Position numbers and translations under genes: made by a program
In this document: piece by piece, positions 47,030 to 60,045 of the stretch
Numbering within the stretch: position 1 is the first letter of the stretch
How the letters are laid out: each line of letters begins with the position of its first letter
The notes under the pieces: model-generated
The model's database searches: none
What the model was told of the DNA's origin: nothing
Seen by the model: the letters and a program-made list of their open reading frames with translations, nothing else
Assembly (NCBI GenBank): GCA_018902385.1
Contig: JABSSW010000015.1
Coordinates: 310,001 to 374,000, forward strand
Reading direction: 5' to 3'
DNA from: Physcia stellaris
Lineage: Eukaryota; Ascomycota; Lecanoromycetes; Caliciales; Physciaceae
Length of the DNA: 64,000 nt

Positions 47030-47525
47030 TTTTCAATGAAGCTCAATGATCTACGCATACGGTTTGATAGCGGTATATGACTTGATATTCTCTACTCCAC
47101 GACGTAGTACTCGAGGCCCAAAGCAGGTCTAGCTACAGAAGTACAAAATAATGTCCTTCGCGCTTTTTGGAACCTGAAGCCGCGTATCTGCAAACCACGA
47201 CACGATCTCAGATAATGAAGGCCCTGATCCTGCCCGGCTACCAGACACCAGAAGACCTCCTTCCCAGTAACCCTCGTGGAAAGACTTCACGTCTAACAGT
47301 ATCGAAACAGGCTTGAGGCGTAGAGTGTTCACGTTAATCTTGGGCTAAGCGAAGACTTTGGTGTGATCTGCTGGAGCTTTTTGCTGTGGTACTTGAGGCG
47401 TGATGGTAAGGAGGGAGGGTTGTCGCAACGGAAAAGCAATGAAGTGAGGAGAATCGGAGCTCATTTAGCGTGGTTGGGAATCACGCACTGATTGGTTGAA
47501 GGTTGCATTAGTAAGCATGCCCCGC
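47030..47525. other. Intergenic, bye1 promoter up to the transposon
   Basis: 496 bp between the bye1-like start and the left end of the TIR element. A reverse ORF 47129..47332 is not supported. Confidence 0.5.
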
Positions 47526-47617
47526 ATCCCCTCCGCATCCAATTAGTGAAATTTCGCGTGATTATTTCGTGATCTTCCCCTCCCACCTGCAATCATCATT
47601 ACTCCATCAATATTACG
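47526..47617 (+). repeat. Left terminal inverted repeat
   Basis: Pairs with 55782-55871 in reverse orientation; the first 29 bases are identical, and ACTCCATCA near the inner end matches ACTCCACCA. It still contains CCCC, CC and CT sites, unlike the interior. Confidence 0.85.
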
Positions 47618-48731
47618 TCTATTCTGATCATTGCGACGTCGTTTGAATCGTTTAAATCGAATCTATTACATCATATAAACAACATGTCATTTGCTGAGTC
47701 AACATCTGAGTTAGTCATCGTGCAAAAAAAGAAAAAACACGCATCGATGCAAACGCTCTCATTTCGAAATCGAAAAAACGACGTTTCACTGTATTGAAGC
47801 AGAAAAAGTCGTTCAAACGTTTGAATTTGATTATACATTTTTTATTACATTTATTTATCGATCATTTCAATTGGATCACGCTTGTATGACGTCTTGAAAG
47901 CTCGTTCAGTTGTTTTTGTTTTTTTTGCAATCGATATTCGATTTATTGTTACATCACATCAATCAGACGATTTATATCAAAAAAATCAATTGAAATGCAC
48001 TCACTATGATGAAATTACGTCAATGAATTGTTATACGCATTTTCATGACTCAACATTTTGCAAAAAACGCAACAATTCAATCATTTTGATTTCAGGAAAA
48101 TTTTCACAAATCATCATTCAATCGCGGTCGATATCAGATCATTGAAAATCATTTGAACGTTGAATTTAATCAACAAAAATCATACAATAATGCATCATGA
48201 TTTTGAAAAATCGAAAACGTTTTGAACGTTTTCAGATCTCAATTATATTTGTTTATTCGTTTTGAAAATCATTTTGCAATTGACGAATTCGCAATCGAAT
48301 TTCACGATCGTATGAGTAACAAATTTCGTTTGTCACACAAATCAACGAAAAAGAATTTCGTTTTATACGTTTTGATCGATAATAAAAACATTTTACACGA
48401 TTTCATGATGTGAAAATCTCGCGATGATTTCGAATATCATAAAAACGATATCACGATCGATATATTTTCAAAAACGACTCGAAAACGCAAAAAAAACATT
48501 ATCGAAATCATTGTTACGACGATTAATTTTGCATTTACGAAAAAAATAATATATATTTTTTGCGAACGAATTACACGCAATTTACGTCATCAGCATTTCG
48601 TTTGTTTTATCGACAATTTTTTCACGAATTTTCATTTCGTCAGAATTTTTTTGATTTTCAATGTCGATATTTGTGACATTGTACGAGACAACGCATCTAA
48701 TATATCACTGAAATTGAAAAAAATAACTGTT
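47618..48731. other. Hypermutated left interior of the TIR element
   Basis: AT-rich with GG/CC almost absent (for example only two in 47881-48240) but CpG common. ORFs here are short and their translations nearly lack Gly, Pro and Trp. No gene supported. Confidence 0.7.
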
Positions 48732-48736
48732 GCAAA
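48732..48736 (+). repeat. Left 5-bp target-site duplication GCAAA
   Basis: GCAAA directly precedes the 5' LTR and the same five bases directly follow the 3' LTR at 54934-54938, as expected from integrase-mediated insertion. Confidence 0.9.
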
Positions 48737-49034
48737 TGTAAAGACATTCAGAGTTCAGATTTGCAGACAATGCGAGCCGAATCTCGCCAAGCAAATTCGA
48801 AACATCAGACCGATTACATCGCGAGACGAGCAATTTCGATTTGCAATTAGCAAAACTCACATTTCGGATATCGCATGAATATTCATGCGCGAAAGTCTGC
48901 GAATTCGTACAATTCAACAAATTAATTGTTTATATAATTGAAAGTCTGCAAAGCAATTAATTCAGCAATTATTAGTTTAATCATACAATCGTCTCTGCTA
49001 TACATTTTTGATGTCACATCTTTTGAGTCTTACA
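48737..49034 (+). repeat. 5' LTR
   Basis: 298 bp, about 88% identical to 54637-54933 over its whole length, with one single-base gap near the start. Differences are transitions only. Confidence 0.93.
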
Positions 49035-52000
49035 TTCTAATAATTACAATAATCATCAAATTAGCATCACTCGTGTATAGCTAGCAGTCAAGCAGTTGAG
49101 TATTCTCGTTGATCGAACGCGCTTATCTTTCTTTCAGAATTCGATTTGAACGAGAAATCGATTCTACGAGAATTCGGACGAGAAACGATCAGAATCAGAT
49201 CGAGAATGAAAAATTTACATCATACAATTAAGTATCGCAATCATGACTTATTGTACTGTTCTATTATCACGTATCGTTCAATCTAGAAAGCAAACATGAG
49301 CTCGAAAAACTAAAAATCTCAACGCAAAATTTCAGAAGCATGCTATTCAATACAATGAAAAGTTTACAATTACAGCAAGCAGTCTCAATCATTCGATTTC
49401 ATTGACATTTTCAGCGATAAGCGTCAGTCACTTCAAATCTCGATTATTCATAACAATATCGACAAATCAAAAACGTCAAAACGATTGGAAAAGTCTGCGC
49501 AACTTGTCGAAATATTCATTCAAAATGAATTTTCGATCTTTCAAATCACGAAGAACAACGCGAGAAGCAACGATTTCAGCCGATTCACTCGCAACTTCGA
49601 GCATCAAACGTCAGAATATCAAGAACGTCTTGAAAACTAAATCAGATCGTGATCACGACAAGAACTCGAAACAATACATTTTAGCTAAAACATCAATGCA
49701 TTCACAAGAGCAAATCGAATGCTGATCTGAACAGAAAGTTTCATCGACGATTGCGAGATCGCATGAATACAATGTCATTCAAAATCAAAATGACGATAAA
49801 AAATTCACATTCGATATGACTAACAAAGAGTCAATCAAAATACACTGTATCATCGACATTTCGACAGCGAAGATGTTGATTCTGTAAAATGTTGATTTTG
49901 CAAGAGCTGATCCTGAAAAGTCTCATATTGTTTCATCAAAAAATGTTGATTTTGCAAAAATTGATCTTGCAAACGATAAAACAAATGAGTGTTTCGATCA
50001 TTTTCAATCAAGTTCGCATAACGAAAACCTCAATAATCAAGCAATATTCAATAGCAACGACAGTTCTTTTGCGACGAGCACTGCTGACATAATCATCAAG
50101 CGTTGTCGCAAAAAGTTCTGCATGACTGATTGCAATAAAAAAATCAATTCAAAGTAATGTTTTCGCTGAATTCAAAAACAATTTCATTTCAAATTTTTAG
50201 TCACGAGATTGCAATTTTAAACAATCGTCAATTCAGATTTTCGACGTCTGCTTCGTACGAATATCATTCTTGAACGAAAACGATCGCGAACGCTTTTTTA
50301 ACGAAAACTTCTGAAAGTTGATTTGAATCAATCGATTTCGTGAAACTGCTTTAGATGCATCAAAATCAGAATGAATATATCGATCAAATTCGATCTTGAC
50401 ACTTCTCGATGCAAATCTCTTCATGATAAACTGTTTCGAACACATCGAATCGAAAAAATCAGTCGATTCTATTATTTATAGTCAGAATAAAATCTTCATT
50501 GTATTCGTACGAGTACTTCATGACGAAAACACGATTTCGAACGAGACGCATATCGAGCAACGATGTCAAACAGCTTATTTTTGTCGAAAATCGAAAACAT
50601 ATGCAGAAACATCAAGAAAGTTGCGAATTTGACGAATTATGAATTTGACAAACATACAATTCGCTCAATGAAAATGCAACAAATCTGAAAAAGCATGCGA
50701 TATGTCTGACGAATTCACAACGAATCACGAAAGCATGCAACAAGATTTGCAGCTGAGCAAAAAATCACACTCTAATTCTATCTACTTTTTATCGAAAAAT
50801 GATTAATAGTCTTGAAAATCTATTTGCGCAGTTATCTGAGAAACGCTCGATCGAACTTGAAGTCGAACAAAAAAACATCGTACAAGACATCAATCTATCA
50901 TTTGATCAGAAATCGCTCGACGAAAGCGTCAATTTTATCGTCTGATTGCCCGACGACGACGTCGCAATTTGTACAGATTTAGCATTTACGTGCAGCGTAC
51001 AACAAACTTCGCGTAAAACAAATGACAAACACAAGCGACGTCAAAACGAAATATATCGCTCTGCGAAGCTTCATTATTTGTACAGATTTTATGATTGCGC
51101 ATGAGCAACGAATTTCGCAACTACAAATTTTCATATGATTGAGACATGCGACATGCGACAAATTTCGCATAAAACAAAGTACAAACGTCAGACGTCGTTG
51201 ACGTCGATGAAGCAAATTGTTGAATACATTCATTTTTTGTCACGTTGATTCGTCTGCAAATAGATTTTCGACGAAACGTTTGAATTTATACGTTATAATG
51301 TATTCGGACAAAAATCATACATTTCACGAATCATAGCACAAATCGTTCTCGCTGTTTTTTCTCAGAATGTGCAGACGCGAAAGCAAAAAAAGCTCGTCGT
51401 TTTTTCGAAATAAAAAAGAATGAATCGCTGTACAACTATGATTAGCATCGAGAAATGTATCTGATACTTTCGATTTCTTGAGATTGTACAAGACTACAAA
51501 TATCAACACAAGAAACTTCAATAAATTTGATTTTTAATTTCATGCTAAAGAACAAGCAAAACTTCACATGAAAAAAGAAAGCAATTGTCAAAACGACTTT
51601 TCAATTCGAATTTTCGAATTTTTCAACGTCGACGAAACGTCTTTCATGAAATATTTTAGCAATTATTTTACAGCAATTCGAGTCGATTAAATCGTTCACG
51701 TGAAAATCGACGCTCAAAACAAAACAATAAGTCTTACTTTTCGCAAAGAATATGTCATCAATGCGACAAGTTCACAAAGAATTTCTGATCATAAAGATCA
51801 TCGAAATCTCAGCAAGCATGACAGGCGACTCGATGAAAAAATCATTGAAAAAAAATTTCGAAACAATCGTCAGTTTGACGTTTTGCGACGGTCTTTGCAA
51901 ACATCTCGATCAATACGAGTCTGCTAAATGAGAAAATCACGATTACAGTGATTCTTCAAGTCATTTCGATGCGACTCAAACAGCGATGCAAAGATCAAAT

Positions 52001-52689
52001 CAAAAAATTATGTATTTTTCGAATGATTTTCAAAAAAAAAATTATAGACTTTTCGAGAAACTTTTGACAACGAAAACTAATTCTTCGAATGATCTCGTTA
52101 AAAAAAGCGAAGAGAACAATTCTTCGAATGATTTTTTTGCTGTTTTCGATTGTCGCATCAGACGTGATCGTCGATGAGTAAAGTAATACTGATAATGCGC
52201 GAATTTTCGAGTCTGATCAATGAGTGACTGAGCAGAAGATATCAAGAATCTGAAAGTAAAATAAACAATGACGACGATTTTCGATGTTTGAATCCGTTCA
52301 TTGTTAAGCATTGACGACGACTTTCAAACTCATACATAAATGATTTGATCTGCTCATTGTCGCAAACTTCGTGCGCGTTTCTAAATGAAACAAAAATTAA
52401 TTATTTTTGATATGATCACACTCGCATTGACAAAAAATGTAAACGAAATTGAAAATTCAACATGCAATTGCTTTACGTGCCATCAAGTCTTAAAAAGAAA
52501 AAGTCATTCGTGCGAAACAATTTTTGATCGAACATTTCGATGAAGACATCTTGAAATCAATACGAAAATATTGTAAATCGAATAAAGTCATAAAAAAAAA
52601 ATCGTTCATACAGACAATTTCTGATCGAATCTTCGATGTGAACGCATCTGATCGAACATTTTGATAAAAAACATTTCAAAACTTATGTC

Positions 52690-53250
52690 GATCAAATGAA
52701 ACAAACAAACAAAATGATCGATCAAACATCGAACATGATTCAAACATGCGAACAAAAATCAAAAATTGCAAAATATAATGTTTTTGCAAACATCTTGACG
52801 ATATTCGAGCATGTAAACAAAAATCAAAAAATATTATGAAATCACAAATTGCGAAACATATAAATCAGTGCAAACATTTCGTCATGATTTCTGTATACTT
52901 TCATGTGTAATGCGCAAATTGAAATCGAAACATAAATCAATTGACAAAATATCTCGTTCAAATTGAAACATACGAAAAAAGTCAAATCACGAAACATGCG
53001 TGAACAAAACTCAGCATTTTATCATATTTTTGCGCGAACAACGATCGAAAACTGCGAGACATATAAATCGTGCAAACGTTTCGTTAAAATCTGAACATGT
53101 TAAAGCGTACAGAAGAAGTCAAACGACGAAACATGCGTCAATGACATCTCGTCATATTTTAACATGTGCGTAAAATCACAAATTGCAAAATATAAATCGT
53201 TGCAAACATTTTGACAGAATCTAAACATGCGAACATGAATCGAAAATATG
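52690..53250. repeat. Degenerate tandem repeat inside the retrotransposon
   Basis: A phrase like AAATTGCGAAACATATAAATC followed by GTGCAAAC and TTTCG or TTTTG recurs near 52846, 53045 and 53175, with related copies before 52800. Copies are diverged, so unit length (about 130-200 bp) is approximate. Confidence 0.55.
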
Positions 53251-54636
53251 CAAACAAACATTTCATTCAAAGTCACACGATAAGCTATCGTTTCAATTCA
53301 ACGAGCACTGATATGAGCTAACTTTACGTGAATCTCATAACAAACTATCGAAAAGTAAAGCATGAAATGTGCAAATGATCGCAGAAAATCTCGCACACAA
53401 TACAATTTCATGATTTTTCTGATCATGCAACGCACAATTGACAAACAATTGACTGTTCATGATAAAATCGACCTGCTAAACATGAAACATCGATGAAAGT
53501 AACATCGCTCAAGATTCTGTCGAAATTTTTCAAAAATAAATTCATTCTGCAAGTCAATGCGCAAAAAAAACTCGCGATGCTGCTAAAAGTGCATAGTTCA
53601 AGACTCGAAACAATCAAACGTATGCGAACAAAACATATAACGCAAAGAGTTTTCATTCAAAATACTCAAACAATGAATTCATCACATAATTGTATTCAAA
53701 AATCGTCTTGCTTTCTGAGAAGTTTAAGCTAAAAAGAAAAGAAAGCTTCGCTAAAATTCTTGCATCAGCTACAAGACATCGACATTGACAAAAAGTAAAA
53801 CAGTCTCGAACAAGTCGTACAGCGAGAACGTATCTGAAAATCAATAGCACGACAAGACAGTTTTTCTGACGATACAATCGATTCGAAAGCAATTTGCATC
53901 AAATATCATGACGCGTTCAGCGTTCTGTAAACGCATTTCTTTTGATAAAGCAACTGATTGAAATTCAATATCACGATCTCATGTCATCGCTTTGTGCTGC
54001 TTACTGTCTAGAACTTACGACGCATTTAAAAGTCTGAATCGTGTCAAAATCATTTTTAAAGATTGCTGCTCGATCTAATTGAGCGTTGAATATTGTGAAT
54101 GTGAAATGAAGTGCAAAAAATCGAAATCTAACACTCAATGCGATCGCGATTATTTCATCAATAAAAATCATACGATGTTTTTCGCATTCAAATCATTTTC
54201 GTCAATTCATCGATTTCGATATAGAAAGCAGAAAAATAGAAAAGAAAATATTGATTCAGATTCAGATTTCACTGTCATCAGTTAACTGTCAGTCATCAGA
54301 CGAAAATTGTGAATTGTACGAAGTCAAACTCTCGATTTTGAAAGCAACAGACAGTCGAATCATTAAATCATGCTTTTTTTGAGTCATTCACGAAAATGAT
54401 TTTCAGATTTTTATCGCAGACTGATTAAAAATCGAAATGAATGATAGAATATTCGATGCGAAAATCACGATCAAAGTGATTTTTCAAACGTAAAAATTTC
54501 TGAATGCGAAAATCGCGATTACAACGATTTTTCAAATTTTATGAATGAAACATACACACACAAACTCAGAATCTCTGTTGCAAAACATATGAAAGAAAGT
54601 CATTTCAAGAAACTTCGATGCTAAAAAAAAAACGCG

Positions 54637-54933
54637 TGTAAGACATTCAGGATTCAAGTCTGCAAACAGTGCGAATCGAATTTCGTCAAACAGATTCGAA
54701 ACATCAGATCGATTACATCGCGAAACGAGCAATTTCGATTTGCAACTAGCAGAATTCACATTTCGAATATCGCATGAATATTCATGCGCGAAGATTTGCG
54801 AGTTCGTACAATTCAACAGATTAATTGTTTATATAATTGGAAATTTGCAAAGCAATTAGTTCAACAATTATTAGTTTAGTCATACAATCGTTTTTGTTAT
54901 ACATTTCTGATGCCACATCTTTTGAGTCTTACA
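54637..54933 (+). repeat. 3' LTR
   Basis: 297 bp partner of 48737-49034, ending GTCTTACA and followed directly by GCAAA. Confidence 0.93.
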
Positions 54934-54938
54934 GCAAA
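54934..54938 (+). repeat. Right 5-bp target-site duplication GCAAA
   Basis: Matches 48732-48736 exactly and abuts the 3' LTR end. Confidence 0.9.
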
Positions 54939-55781
54939 CAAGTCACAGTTGAATTTAAAACAATGAATACATCGAATTGTGAACGAATTGATCAATTGTT
55001 TCGTTTGAAAAAATCTCGAACGTGATCACGTGATCTCATTTGTTATTACTGCATATATTTCACAAACAAACGAACAAACATCACGAAAAATTCGATTCAC
55101 GATCGATGTTTCTCTTCGAGACGATTTCAATAAAATCGTCGTCAAACAGCTCATTATTGCAATGCAATACAATTTTCATATGAATCATGTGAATCGTGCA
55201 AATCAATTTCGAAATGAATTGACGATATCACGATTCGAACAATTCAAATGAACGAAACGAATGATCGAATACATAATGAATGCGATCAATATTAATCATA
55301 CATCGTTTAAAATCATCATCAATCACAGACGAATTCTGATCATCGAAATCGACGTATATTTACTCAAAAATTGATTGATAAACTTTTACGAAATTCAAAT
55401 ATCATATATCAATCGTCAAAGTGTGTCAAATCGATCTATTGTGTGTGAAGTGATTGTTCGATCAATTTTCACATCAAATCTCGAAAACGTCAATCATTCA
55501 TTTTCAAAAATGTCAACATACAACATCGTTCGAATCGTAAAACGTTTGATTATTGTATGACATGTAAAATAAATTTATGCGTGTCACATGAATGCTTCAA
55601 AAATTATCATGATTCGAAAAGATAATCATACGAATGCTTTGATCAATAGAGAAATTTGAAAACGTTTCGAAACACTTGAAAGTGATTTAGTGATTTCAAA
55701 CGAACTTCGAATGTAATCATATTTCAGTTATTGAATGTTTATATACTATCGAACTCCTTCACTGAATTATACACATATACA
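54939..55781. other. Hypermutated right interior of the TIR element
   Basis: Same composition as the left interior: AT-rich, GG/CC rare, CpG frequent. Short ORFs only; no gene supported. Confidence 0.7.
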
Positions 55782-55871
55782 CGTAAATTTGGTGGAGTAA
55801 TGGTGGTTGAAGTGGGGAGGAAGGATCGCGTGAAAACACGCTAAATTTCACTAATTGGATGCGGAGGGGAT
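55782..55871 (-). repeat. Right terminal inverted repeat
   Basis: Reverse complement of the left TIR; retains GGGG, GGTGG and GGAGG, in contrast to the adjoining interior. Confidence 0.85.
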
Positions 55872-55943
55872 ACAGATACTGCAACTACCGTTTCAAACAC
55901 ATCGGGACAATCAAATTGCTCATCAACAATAACAACAGCGAGC

Positions 55944-56873
55944 ATGGCCGACGTGCGTTCTATGCTGCGCAATGAGCGTGTTGCGAGGCGTCTCAATCAT
56001 CCGCACCTCACATACTCGACGACAGGTACATTGGTCTGCCTCGTATGTCACATCCAGCTCAAATCAGAGGCGCTTTGGAATAAACATCTCGACAGCAATC
56101 AGCATGCGATGCGTCTACAAAGAATACGAGACAATGCATTAGGTAGACCGCCCGGCGCCCCGCCTCCTACAGAAGTCTTAGACGAGCAGCTCCCGGAAAG
56201 CACAAATGGCAGCAAGAAGCGCAAAGCGGACGACTCGAACGGTGACACGAGGAAGAAGCCCAAACCTGCAAATGGCGTACCGCCCGGTTTCTTCGACGAA
56301 GAAGCACTCTATCAAGATCAATCATCGGACTCGGAACCCCAAGAGTTAACCAAAGTCCAGCCGCGACGGCTATCCGATAATTTACCAGCTTCCTCGAACA
56401 GACCAGCTTCAAATGGTCAAGATCAGACTCCTACGCCTCCAACCACCGCCGAGCCTGCTACAGTTGACGAAGACGAATGGGCTGCCTTCGAGCGCGACGT
56501 TGCGACTCCGCCACCTGAGCCCTCAGCCCTTACCGCGGAGGCAACCATCAGCGCCGCGCCCATGTCCGCAGCTGAGCTAGCCGCTCAATCGCGCGAGGAG
56601 GCCAATCTGCAGAAAAAGTCCATCCGTGAAATTGAGCTTGAAGGTGAGAGAGAAGACGCAGCAAGGCAAATGGAGGAGGAATTGGACGAAATGGCAGGAT
56701 TCGACGATAGGGTGAAGCGGCTAAGAGAAAAGAGGGAACAGCTGAGACTCTTAAACGCAGCATCGCAGCGTATGAAAAATGAAGATAGTGACGGTGGCGG
56801 TGAGGGTGATGACGAACATGAAGATGATGAAGAAGACGAAGATGTTGATGAATTTGATCTTTGGTCGAGGTAA
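55944..56873 (+). CDS. ZNF830/CCDC16-like zinc-finger coiled-coil protein
   Basis: Intronless, 309 residues. The start MADVRSMLRNERVARRLNH leads to one matrin/U1-type C2H2 finger with Cys32, Cys35, His48 and His54 (CLVCHIQLKSEALWNKH). A basic nuclear segment follows (KKRKADDSNGDTRKKPK), then GVPPGFFDEE, the conserved VDEDEWAAFERDVATPP, a helical stretch (REIELEGEREDAARQMEEE) and an acidic tail ending VDEFDLWSR. This order matches ZNF830 homologues, nuclear proteins tied to pre-mRNA splicing and genome stability in animals; the fungal role is unproven. Only 72 bp separate its ATG from the transposon, so its promoter has probably been replaced or displaced. Confidence 0.88.
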   Translation: MADVRSMLRNERVARRLNHPHLTYSTTGTLVCLVCHIQLKSEALWNKHLDSNQHAMRLQRIRDNALGRPPGAPPPTEVLDEQLPESTNGSKKRKADDSNGDTRKKPKPANGVPPGFFDEEALYQDQSSDSEPQELTKVQPRRLSDNLPASSNRPASNGQDQTPTPPTTAEPATVDEDEWAAFERDVATPPPEPSALTAEATISAAPMSAAELAAQSREEANLQKKSIREIELEGEREDAARQMEEELDEMAGFDDRVKRLREKREQLRLLNAASQRMKNEDSDGGGEGDDEHEDDEEDEDVDEFDLWSR

Positions 56874-58890: not shown

Positions 58891-60045
58891 ATGGACGCTT
58901 CAACCGATCGTTTCTCCTTTGACCAGTATCTTCCTGCTTTGACCAGATACTTAGATACCGTCGAGTACTGCGGCAATAAGTTTCCGAGAGCTGATCGTCT
59001 TGCCACACTGCGACATGTTTATTCCAAGACAGCCGATTATTTCGCACAAGTTCCCCAGACCACTGCTCTAAGGGTTCATCCAAAGAAATTGGCTGTGGCG
59101 ATGCGGGCGAGTGTGCATCTTGTTGTGCTCTGCTGGGTTACGCTTCCGAATCAGGTGATGATTGATCTTAGCATCTACTGGGTCTATATCATCCTACTGG
59201 ATGATTCTGGTGAAGACCCTCGCGCGGACATGGAAACCTTTGCGCAGGACTTACTTCACGGTCAGCCACAGAAAGGAACCTTTTGGCGACTCATGAACGA
59301 CCATCTCTCGTCGCGTTTTCTCCCCCATTACGGCAGCTTCTGCAGCTTGGCTATACTTCGAAGCACTCTAGATTACTTCCAAGGATGCTGGATTGAGACG
59401 CATGACTTTGGCGGGTTCCCTGGATCAGGGTATTATCCTCTGTTCCTACGTAGACTCAATGGCTTGGGCGGAATTTGTGGCGGAAGTCTCTTTCCAGCAG
59501 AGAATTTTGACGAAGAGCAAAACTTTGAGCACATCACCACCGTCATTGCTCAGCTCGAGCCGGTAATCCATTTTGTAAATGATGTGTTTTCATTTTACAA
59601 GGAATCCGGATTGGAAAGAGACCAGATCAACGTCATCACGAATGAGTGCCGAGCAGAAGGAATCACTTTCTCGCAAGCTTTTGATCGACTCATAGATCGC
59701 ACTGTATCCGCCGTCGAGCAACTACAAACTGTTTTTGCTTCGCAAGAGAATCCGGTGGTAGCGCAGATGATGGAAGCGTTTGTCGAGGGTTATACGACAT
59801 GGCATCTCTGTAGTGAAAGATATCGCATGCGAGAGATATATGATAGAGCCAATAGCGCCTCTGATGGGATCAGATTCCGCAGATACTATGAGGCCGCTCT
59901 TGATGCCGGCTCTTTTGACGCTGAAGATTGGACCTCTGGGTTAACGGCATCCGTTGTTTCAGAGCAGGATCAATGCCTTTTGAAGCAGACGTCAGCAATG
60001 GGGGACGAGCATCAAGCCCATGGAGAGATCGCATTGGAAGCTTGA
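58891..60045 (+). CDS. Sesquiterpene cyclase, trichodiene-synthase-like
   Basis: Intronless, 384 residues, about the family length (near 375-385). Class I terpene cyclases ionise farnesyl diphosphate and cyclise it. The Asp-rich Mg-binding motif is D104-D105-S-G-E-D in YIILLDDSGED, and the second metal motif is N230-D-V-F-S234-F-Y-K-E238 (NDxxSxxxE type). LRSTLDYFQGCWIE, FGGFPGSGYYP, FLRRLNGLGG and YTTWHLCSERYR are characteristic of the trichodiene synthase family. The actual product cannot be read; related enzymes in other fungi make non-trichothecene sesquiterpenes. No trichothecene or P450 genes are recognisable nearby and the neighbours are housekeeping, so this looks like a lone cyclase. 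It sits between direct copies of the dre4-like 3' end. Confidence 0.9.
   Translation: MDASTDRFSFDQYLPALTRYLDTVEYCGNKFPRADRLATLRHVYSKTADYFAQVPQTTALRVHPKKLAVAMRASVHLVVLCWVTLPNQVMIDLSIYWVYIILLDDSGEDPRADMETFAQDLLHGQPQKGTFWRLMNDHLSSRFLPHYGSFCSLAILRSTLDYFQGCWIETHDFGGFPGSGYYPLFLRRLNGLGGICGGSLFPAENFDEEQNFEHITTVIAQLEPVIHFVNDVFSFYKESGLERDQINVITNECRAEGITFSQAFDRLIDRTVSAVEQLQTVFASQENPVVAQMMEAFVEGYTTWHLCSERYRMREIYDRANSASDGIRFRRYYEAALDAGSFDAEDWTSGLTASVVSEQDQCLLKQTSAMGDEHQAHGEIALEA

Follow-up and report, generated by a model that had tools for sequence, protein, structure and literature searches.

The lichen-forming Lecanoromycete Physcia stellaris very probably runs, or has recently run, a form of repeat-induced point mutation (RIP) aimed at CpC and CpT (together CpY) and not at CpA. 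The starting point is a long terminal repeat (LTR) element in a 64,000-nucleotide stretch of its genome, here called the window (C15:310001–374000; C denotes contigs, L loci and P proteins). A MAFFT alignment of its two LTRs, 48737–49034 against 54637–54933, gave 298 columns with 1 gap column and 35 substitutions, all of them transitions (35/35, with 0 transversions). With context read from the copy that retains the C, as the base on its 3′ side, 28 changes fell in CpT (3 of which adjoin a second change) and 7 in CpC, with none in CpA or CpG; the cytosines left unchanged on both strands comprised 44 CpA, 32 CpG, 10 CpT and 0 CpC, so that 35 of 45 CpY sites had changed versus 0 of 76 CpA and CpG sites (together CpR; Fisher P 1e-21). 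An earlier note, made from the sequence alone, had counted by hand about 35 substitutions, all transitions, with the changed C preceding T in about 28 cases and C in about 7, and had described CpA and CpG as common and fully conserved in the LTRs; the machine alignment reproduces every one of these figures. Neither transversions nor CpA or CpG changes, which that note had named as contrary evidence, were seen in the LTR pair, and its RIP-like reading of the pair is supported. The base preceding the changed C was T (17), A (11) or G (7), and never C (0), but a 5′ C is no general bar, as 60/60 CCC and 139/142 CCT sites changed between two copies of another family (L036 to L053).

That other family was found in the wider genome (43,974,083 bp in 147 contigs in the assembly analysed) and carries an RVT_1 domain; we take it to be Gypsy-type. 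L036 is undamaged (GC 0.51, domain without stops), and from L036 to L053, the cleanest pair, changes affected CpC at 434/436 sites, CpT at 450/461, CpA at 26/441 and CpG at 0/409, placing the CpA rate about 16 times below that of CpT and the CpG rate at zero. This pair shows 910 C-to-T changes versus 1 transversion and 1 T-to-C, and the two strands were altered alike, CpY having changed at 371/376 sites as C and at 506/514 as G. When nine loci matching L036 over at least 1.5 kb with few transversions were pooled against it – copies that share ancestry and are not independent – the changed fractions were 3352/3434 (97.6%) for CpC, 3112/3634 (85.6%) for CpT, 246/3450 (7.1%) for CpA and 108/3199 (3.4%) for CpG. 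CpC is the stronger target, with a CpC/CpT rate ratio of 1.4–2.3 in each of the nine copies. The statement that the process hits CpY and not CpA, which the earlier note drew from the LTR pair, stands there, and elsewhere it is nearly but not absolutely true (CpA 26/441 from L036 to L053). The minor CpA changes in L053 fall more often in CpApY (21/185) than in CpApR (5/255), a hint that a pyrimidine at the next 3′ position may partly substitute.

Other kinds of repeat gave the same order. Nine LTR pairs, drawn from 40 listed LTR matches (158 candidates) with solo and partial LTRs and a widely spaced pair on C47 left out, together showed changes at 48/50 CpC, 152/239 CpT, 15/367 CpA and 8/260 CpG sites, with 5 transversions and one change next to a gap. 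In a DDE_1 transposon family, presumably of mariner or pogo type, the pair L056 to L062 had changed at 221/270 CpC (82%), 184/286 CpT (64%), 20/289 CpA (7%) and 18/297 CpG (6%) sites, alongside 64 transversions. As a control, two undamaged RVT_1 copies, L037 (C5:1166521) and L038 (C12:60312), are 95% identical over 3.5 kb and differ by 1.8–4.8% in every context and in both directions, with 40 transversions and no CpY bias. Because this pair is unbiased, the CpY bias of the damaged copies is not ordinary divergence. The lack of bias in L037 and L038 also indicates that some repeats escape the mutation process. Ordinary CpA-to-TpA depletion, which the earlier note had also listed as contrary evidence, was not seen in the genome repeats fetched.

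Within the window, the LTR element lies inside a second repeat, and the features are as follows (window positions):

47525–48736, no strand assigned: left part of the second repeat holding the LTR element (copy matches; terminal inverted repeat at its outer end)
47605–55755, no strand assigned: CpC-purged, CpT-depleted tract (dinucleotide counts)
48732–48736, plus strand: target-site duplication GCAAA, left copy (sequence; empty sites elsewhere)
48737–49034, plus strand: 5′ LTR, CpY-depleted (MAFFT alignment, dinucleotide counts)
49035–54636, plus strand: internal region, CpY-depleted (dinucleotide counts)
54637–54933, plus strand: 3′ LTR, with 35 CpY transitions versus the 5′ LTR (MAFFT alignment)
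54934–54938, plus strand: target-site duplication GCAAA, right copy (sequence; empty sites elsewhere)
54934–55871, no strand assigned: right part of the second repeat (copies 82–94% identical; other terminal inverted repeat)

The LTR coordinates given by the earlier note are correct. The element is a true insertion, since its LTR termini read TG...CA, 5-bp GCAAA direct repeats flank it, and other copies of the outer repeat retain empty sites with 5 bp between the flank matches, for example between C1:712005 and C1:712011. Its 5602-bp internal region contains 13 CC+GG, 430 CT+AG, 790 CA+TG and 321 CG dinucleotides and carries 108 stops in one plus-strand frame. None of the listed RVT_1 and RVT_2 matches, for which the best candidates were scored, falls inside the element, which may be non-autonomous. 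Without the LTR element, the outer repeat measures about 2.15 kb; it spans about 47525–55871, bears terminal inverted repeats of about 97 bp and has about 39 other copies among the matches listed (left part 80–93% identical). The purged tract starts ~60–80 bp inside the left edge of this repeat and ends ~80–115 bp inside its right edge, so that the damage edges fall within or near its inverted repeats, and CpC and CpT are retained across most of the two inverted termini. The window is purged solely inside the repeat, with adjoining single-copy DNA spared; no leakage of damage into unique flanks was seen in the window, and no other copy of the outer flanks of the repeat was found in the genome. 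The trichodiene synthase family (PF06330, E 6.7e-134) is represented by an open frame at window 58891–60045, plus strand, ~3 kb from the mutated repeat.

Two further claims about this region, that GG and CC are nearly gone and that TpA is low, were borne out: 47605–55755 holds only 23 CC or GG (2.8 per kb versus 117 per kb outside), and TA/AT is 0.37–0.47 in 1-kb windows from 48001 to 56000. Standard RIP thresholds (TpA/ApT ≥0.89 and CpA index ≤1.03) do not detect such damage. We took 1-kb samples at position 400001 of 20 hand-chosen large contigs, not sorted by copy number; two (L076 and L085) were purged alike and 18 were normal, and none of the 20 lay beyond both thresholds, the nearest being L080, of normal GC (1.14 and 1.04). 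Among 274 one-kb windows from fetched loci, picked largely for repeats and with a few overlapping, 0 of 131 purged and 0 of 143 other windows passed both thresholds; the purged windows had a median TpA/ApT of 0.42 and a median CpA index of 1.46, opposite to the values that the thresholds require. The GC content of 82 heavily purged 1-kb pieces was 21–31% (median 26%).

The spectrum makes a further prediction for coding sequence. On the coding strand, no sense codon becomes a stop when CpY changes to TpY; on the opposite strand the change converts TGG to TGA. Targeting of CpA would yield TAA and TAG from CAA and CAG. CpY mutation thus creates stops only at TGG, and an excess of TGA is predicted. 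We scored 297 transposon domain matches (150 RVT_1 of 527 candidates, 137 RVT_2 and 10 DDE_1), which are related copies and not independent events; 282 contained stops, and the 838 stops comprised 695 TGA, 6 TAG and 137 TAA, a distribution that largely fits a CpY target. In an alignment of 20 RVT_1 domains, 22 of 28 TGA codons fall into three columns, each with tryptophan in one or more of five undamaged copies.

The earlier note had also called for a search for RID-like methyltransferase genes, and such genes are present. A genome search with the Pfam C5-methyltransferase family gave four matches in three genes, on C3, C5 and C6. The C3 gene has a 1064-residue open frame with ENV in motif VI and matches PDB 9bap and 9baq, which we take to be DIM-2, at E 2e-188; by its sequence it is DIM-2-like. 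The hallmarks of the RID/Masc1 group are PCQ in motif IV, EQT or EET in motif VI and a short target-recognition domain (PMC6709928). The C5 gene has PPCQ and EQT, the C6 gene has PPCQ and EET, and the motif VIII–IX stretch is short in both, which classes them by motif as RID/Masc1-type. The C5 protein is 47% identical to Aspergillus flavus DmtA over 302 residues; the C6 matches that carry functional names include DmtA proteins (36–38% identity), and C5 and C6 are 42% identical across the catalytic region. In an 85-row RID-family alignment, chosen from 233 proteins plus two and with the C5 protein (P0001) entered twice, leaving 83 distinct others, one column of the target-recognition/motif IX region holds Tyr in C6 (L033) and His in each of the other 84 rows. 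This substitution is a lead only, and it makes the C6 paralogue a candidate for a specificity switch.

In repeated DNA, C becomes T on both strands where the 3′ neighbour is a pyrimidine, with CpC mutated 1.4–2.3 times as fast as CpT. In the mechanism that we favour, one or both RID/Masc1-type enzymes would target CpY premeiotically in repeats that have been recognised, and the changed specificity would reside in the enzyme itself. Methyltransferase activity of RID was undemonstrated as of 2008 (PMC2432034) and 2019 (PMC6709928), in the parts of those papers covered here.

Several observations weigh against a purely CpY-directed process. In the cleanest pair, 26/441 changed CpA versus 0/409 CpG (P 3e-8) means that the CpR changes are not all background, and in L046 CpA changes reach up to 62/415. 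Thirteen best pairs without overlap were kept from 30 RVT_1 and DDE_1 loci, with L036/L054, L056/L062 and the control among these pairs. They show changes at 731/1195 CpC and 1493/2243 CpT sites, but also at 505/4048 CpA and 308/3763 CpG sites, together with 453 transversions. In one of them, L043/L048, CpA changes (46) exceed CpT changes (38), and the L010 LTR pair (C19:727837 and 733391) has 7 of each. Where the copies of a pair are old and their CpY is exhausted, changes at CpA and CpG carry greater weight, and the parity in L010 perhaps arises in this way. In the domain alignment, 6 of the 28 TGA codons fall in columns without tryptophan in any of the five undamaged copies. The 137 TAA stops among the 838 require either a change at CpA or a preceding TAG, and they suggest a minor CpA contribution or older decay.

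An alternative that we consider improbable is that CpY in repeats is methylated without directed mutation, as in methylation induced premeiotically (MIP) of Ascobolus, and then deaminates slowly. The DIM-2-like and RID/Masc1-type genes would suit such a process, and cytosine methylation is not visible from sequence. Slow decay, though, should add many more background changes than the one transversion and one T-to-C that accompany 910 C-to-T changes in L053, since even undamaged L037 and L038 are already 40 transversions apart at 95% identity. MIP leaves the sequence unchanged, whereas the LTR pair and L053 are altered.

We also regard it as very unlikely that the pattern is an artefact of assembly, in which methylated CpY cytosines were miscalled as T in Nanopore reads and Illumina reads bearing C failed to map to a T-rich draft. 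According to the published description (PMC7513301), a culture raised from ascospores was sequenced, and the assembly was made by Canu from Guppy 3.0.3 Nanopore reads and then polished with Racon and, using Illumina reads, with Pilon; that assembly has 46.57 Mb in 184 scaffolds, and the smaller one analysed here may be a filtered version. The methods and results sections on Physcia in the portion of that paper covered contain no RIP analysis. Consistent with miscalling, the conversion is close to complete in some copies and strictly C-to-T, and short reads presumably could not correct sequence 25% off. Against this, copies differ in their subsets of changes and most also carry transversions, and the L036/L053 alignment has 13 gap letters in 3477 bp, fewer indels than expected from miscalls. 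Peptides in the mutated state are, moreover, encoded in ENA-sourced assemblies. A 200-residue frame of a damaged copy matches seven proteins (P0234–P0240), all from ENA assemblies and 54–91% identical. Over 181 of the 200 codons, at the informative sites, where damaged and undamaged copies differ, the seven carry 195 mutated, 19 undamaged and 106 other residues (P0235: 32 mutated, 1 undamaged and 6 other); a damaged query favours mutated-state matches, and the species and sequencing technology of the ENA contigs are unstated. The more distant of these translated matches suggest that related fungi may share the CpY spectrum. P0234–P0240 possibly come from other lichen fungi.

Editing of single-stranded DNA by an APOBEC-like cytosine deaminase, for example during reverse transcription, seems scarcely credible. 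A deaminase could prefer a dinucleotide, and a genome search with PF00383, a general deaminase family, gave 8 matches. APOBEC-type hypermutation is expected to be strand-asymmetric, whereas the two strands of L053 are nearly equal (371/376 versus 506/514), and the DDE_1 family and the outer inverted-repeat element are mutated too. The preferences of APOBEC enzymes depend on the base 5′ of the C, whereas in Physcia it is the 3′ base that governs. Separate enzymes for CpC and CpT are not supported, as the ratio of the two rates stays at 1.4–2.3 in all nine L036-family copies (which share ancestry). RIP of the CpA type was rejected on the index values, on CpA at 26/441 and on the thresholds (0/131), and decay of methylated CpG on the finding that CpG is the best conserved class in the nine copies compared with L036.

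Returning to CpY-directed RIP, we raise tentatively, as somewhat less than an even prospect, that a RID/Masc1-family enzyme switched from CpA to CpY, giving a distinct RIP chemistry common to Physcia and related lichen fungi. If so, such RIP would escape CpA-based thresholds and turn sense codons into stops only via tryptophan. Common thresholds assume CpA and the Physcia mutator gives opposite index values; RIP may be under-counted because CpY-type damage fails such thresholds. A near-absolute dinucleotide switch beside genes from a known enzyme family also offers a way to map RID specificity.

Compared with RIP in Neurospora crassa (RID, DIM-2), the Physcia process is alike in changing C to T on both strands, in affecting repeats, in making hundreds of changes per copy, and in the presence of RID/Masc1-type and DIM-2-type genes. 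The Neurospora preference is CpA>CpT>CpG>CpC (PMC5496416), unlike the order CpC>CpT>>CpA>CpG in Physcia, where the CpA preference usual in RIP, although species vary, is absent (CpA 26/441 versus CpC 434/436). Mixed CpA and CpT signatures are reported for Botrytis cinerea, Sclerotinia sclerotiorum, Magnaporthe oryzae and Anisogramma anomala, the first three of which have RID/Masc1 genes (PMC4352252, PMC10998396), and Monilinia has CpC-to-TpT double mutations beside CpA-to-TpA (PMC8959702); in all of these, as far as the cited portions describe, CpA is also a target, whereas Physcia largely spares CpA and CpC is its strongest target. A CpC signature is not listed in the portion of PMC4352252 covered, which describes CpG-type signatures with a C-to-T bias in transposons of basidiomycetes and Tuber; in Physcia, by contrast, CpG is the most spared class (0/409; 108/3199). 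Among lichen fungi, Cladonia rangiformis has RID and DIM-2 homologues and AT-rich repeats peaking near 16% GC (PMC12542154), versus a median of 26% in purged Physcia pieces, and the repeats of Endocarpon pusillum, AT-rich like those of Physcia, have a TpA/ApT of 1.47 and a CpA index of 0.70 (PMC3897900), the reverse of the Physcia medians of 0.42 and 1.46. A CpT or CpC component alone is not new, because CpT-to-TpT was dominant in the RIP-capable controls of one survey's alignments (PMC7882544), RIPCAL found CpT to exceed CpA in Neurospora Tad1 (PMC2621366), and Monilinia shows the CpC changes cited above. From k-mers in 1,239 fungi, one survey concludes that a preference for CpA is common to RIP-like defences (PMC12543289), and a CpY-only signature was not found in the portions of the open-access literature covered, a search to which the main ascomycete survey, Clutterbuck 2011, does not belong. 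Within that literature, what is new in Physcia is that the target is almost exclusively CpY, with CpC preferred, and that CpA and CpG are largely spared.

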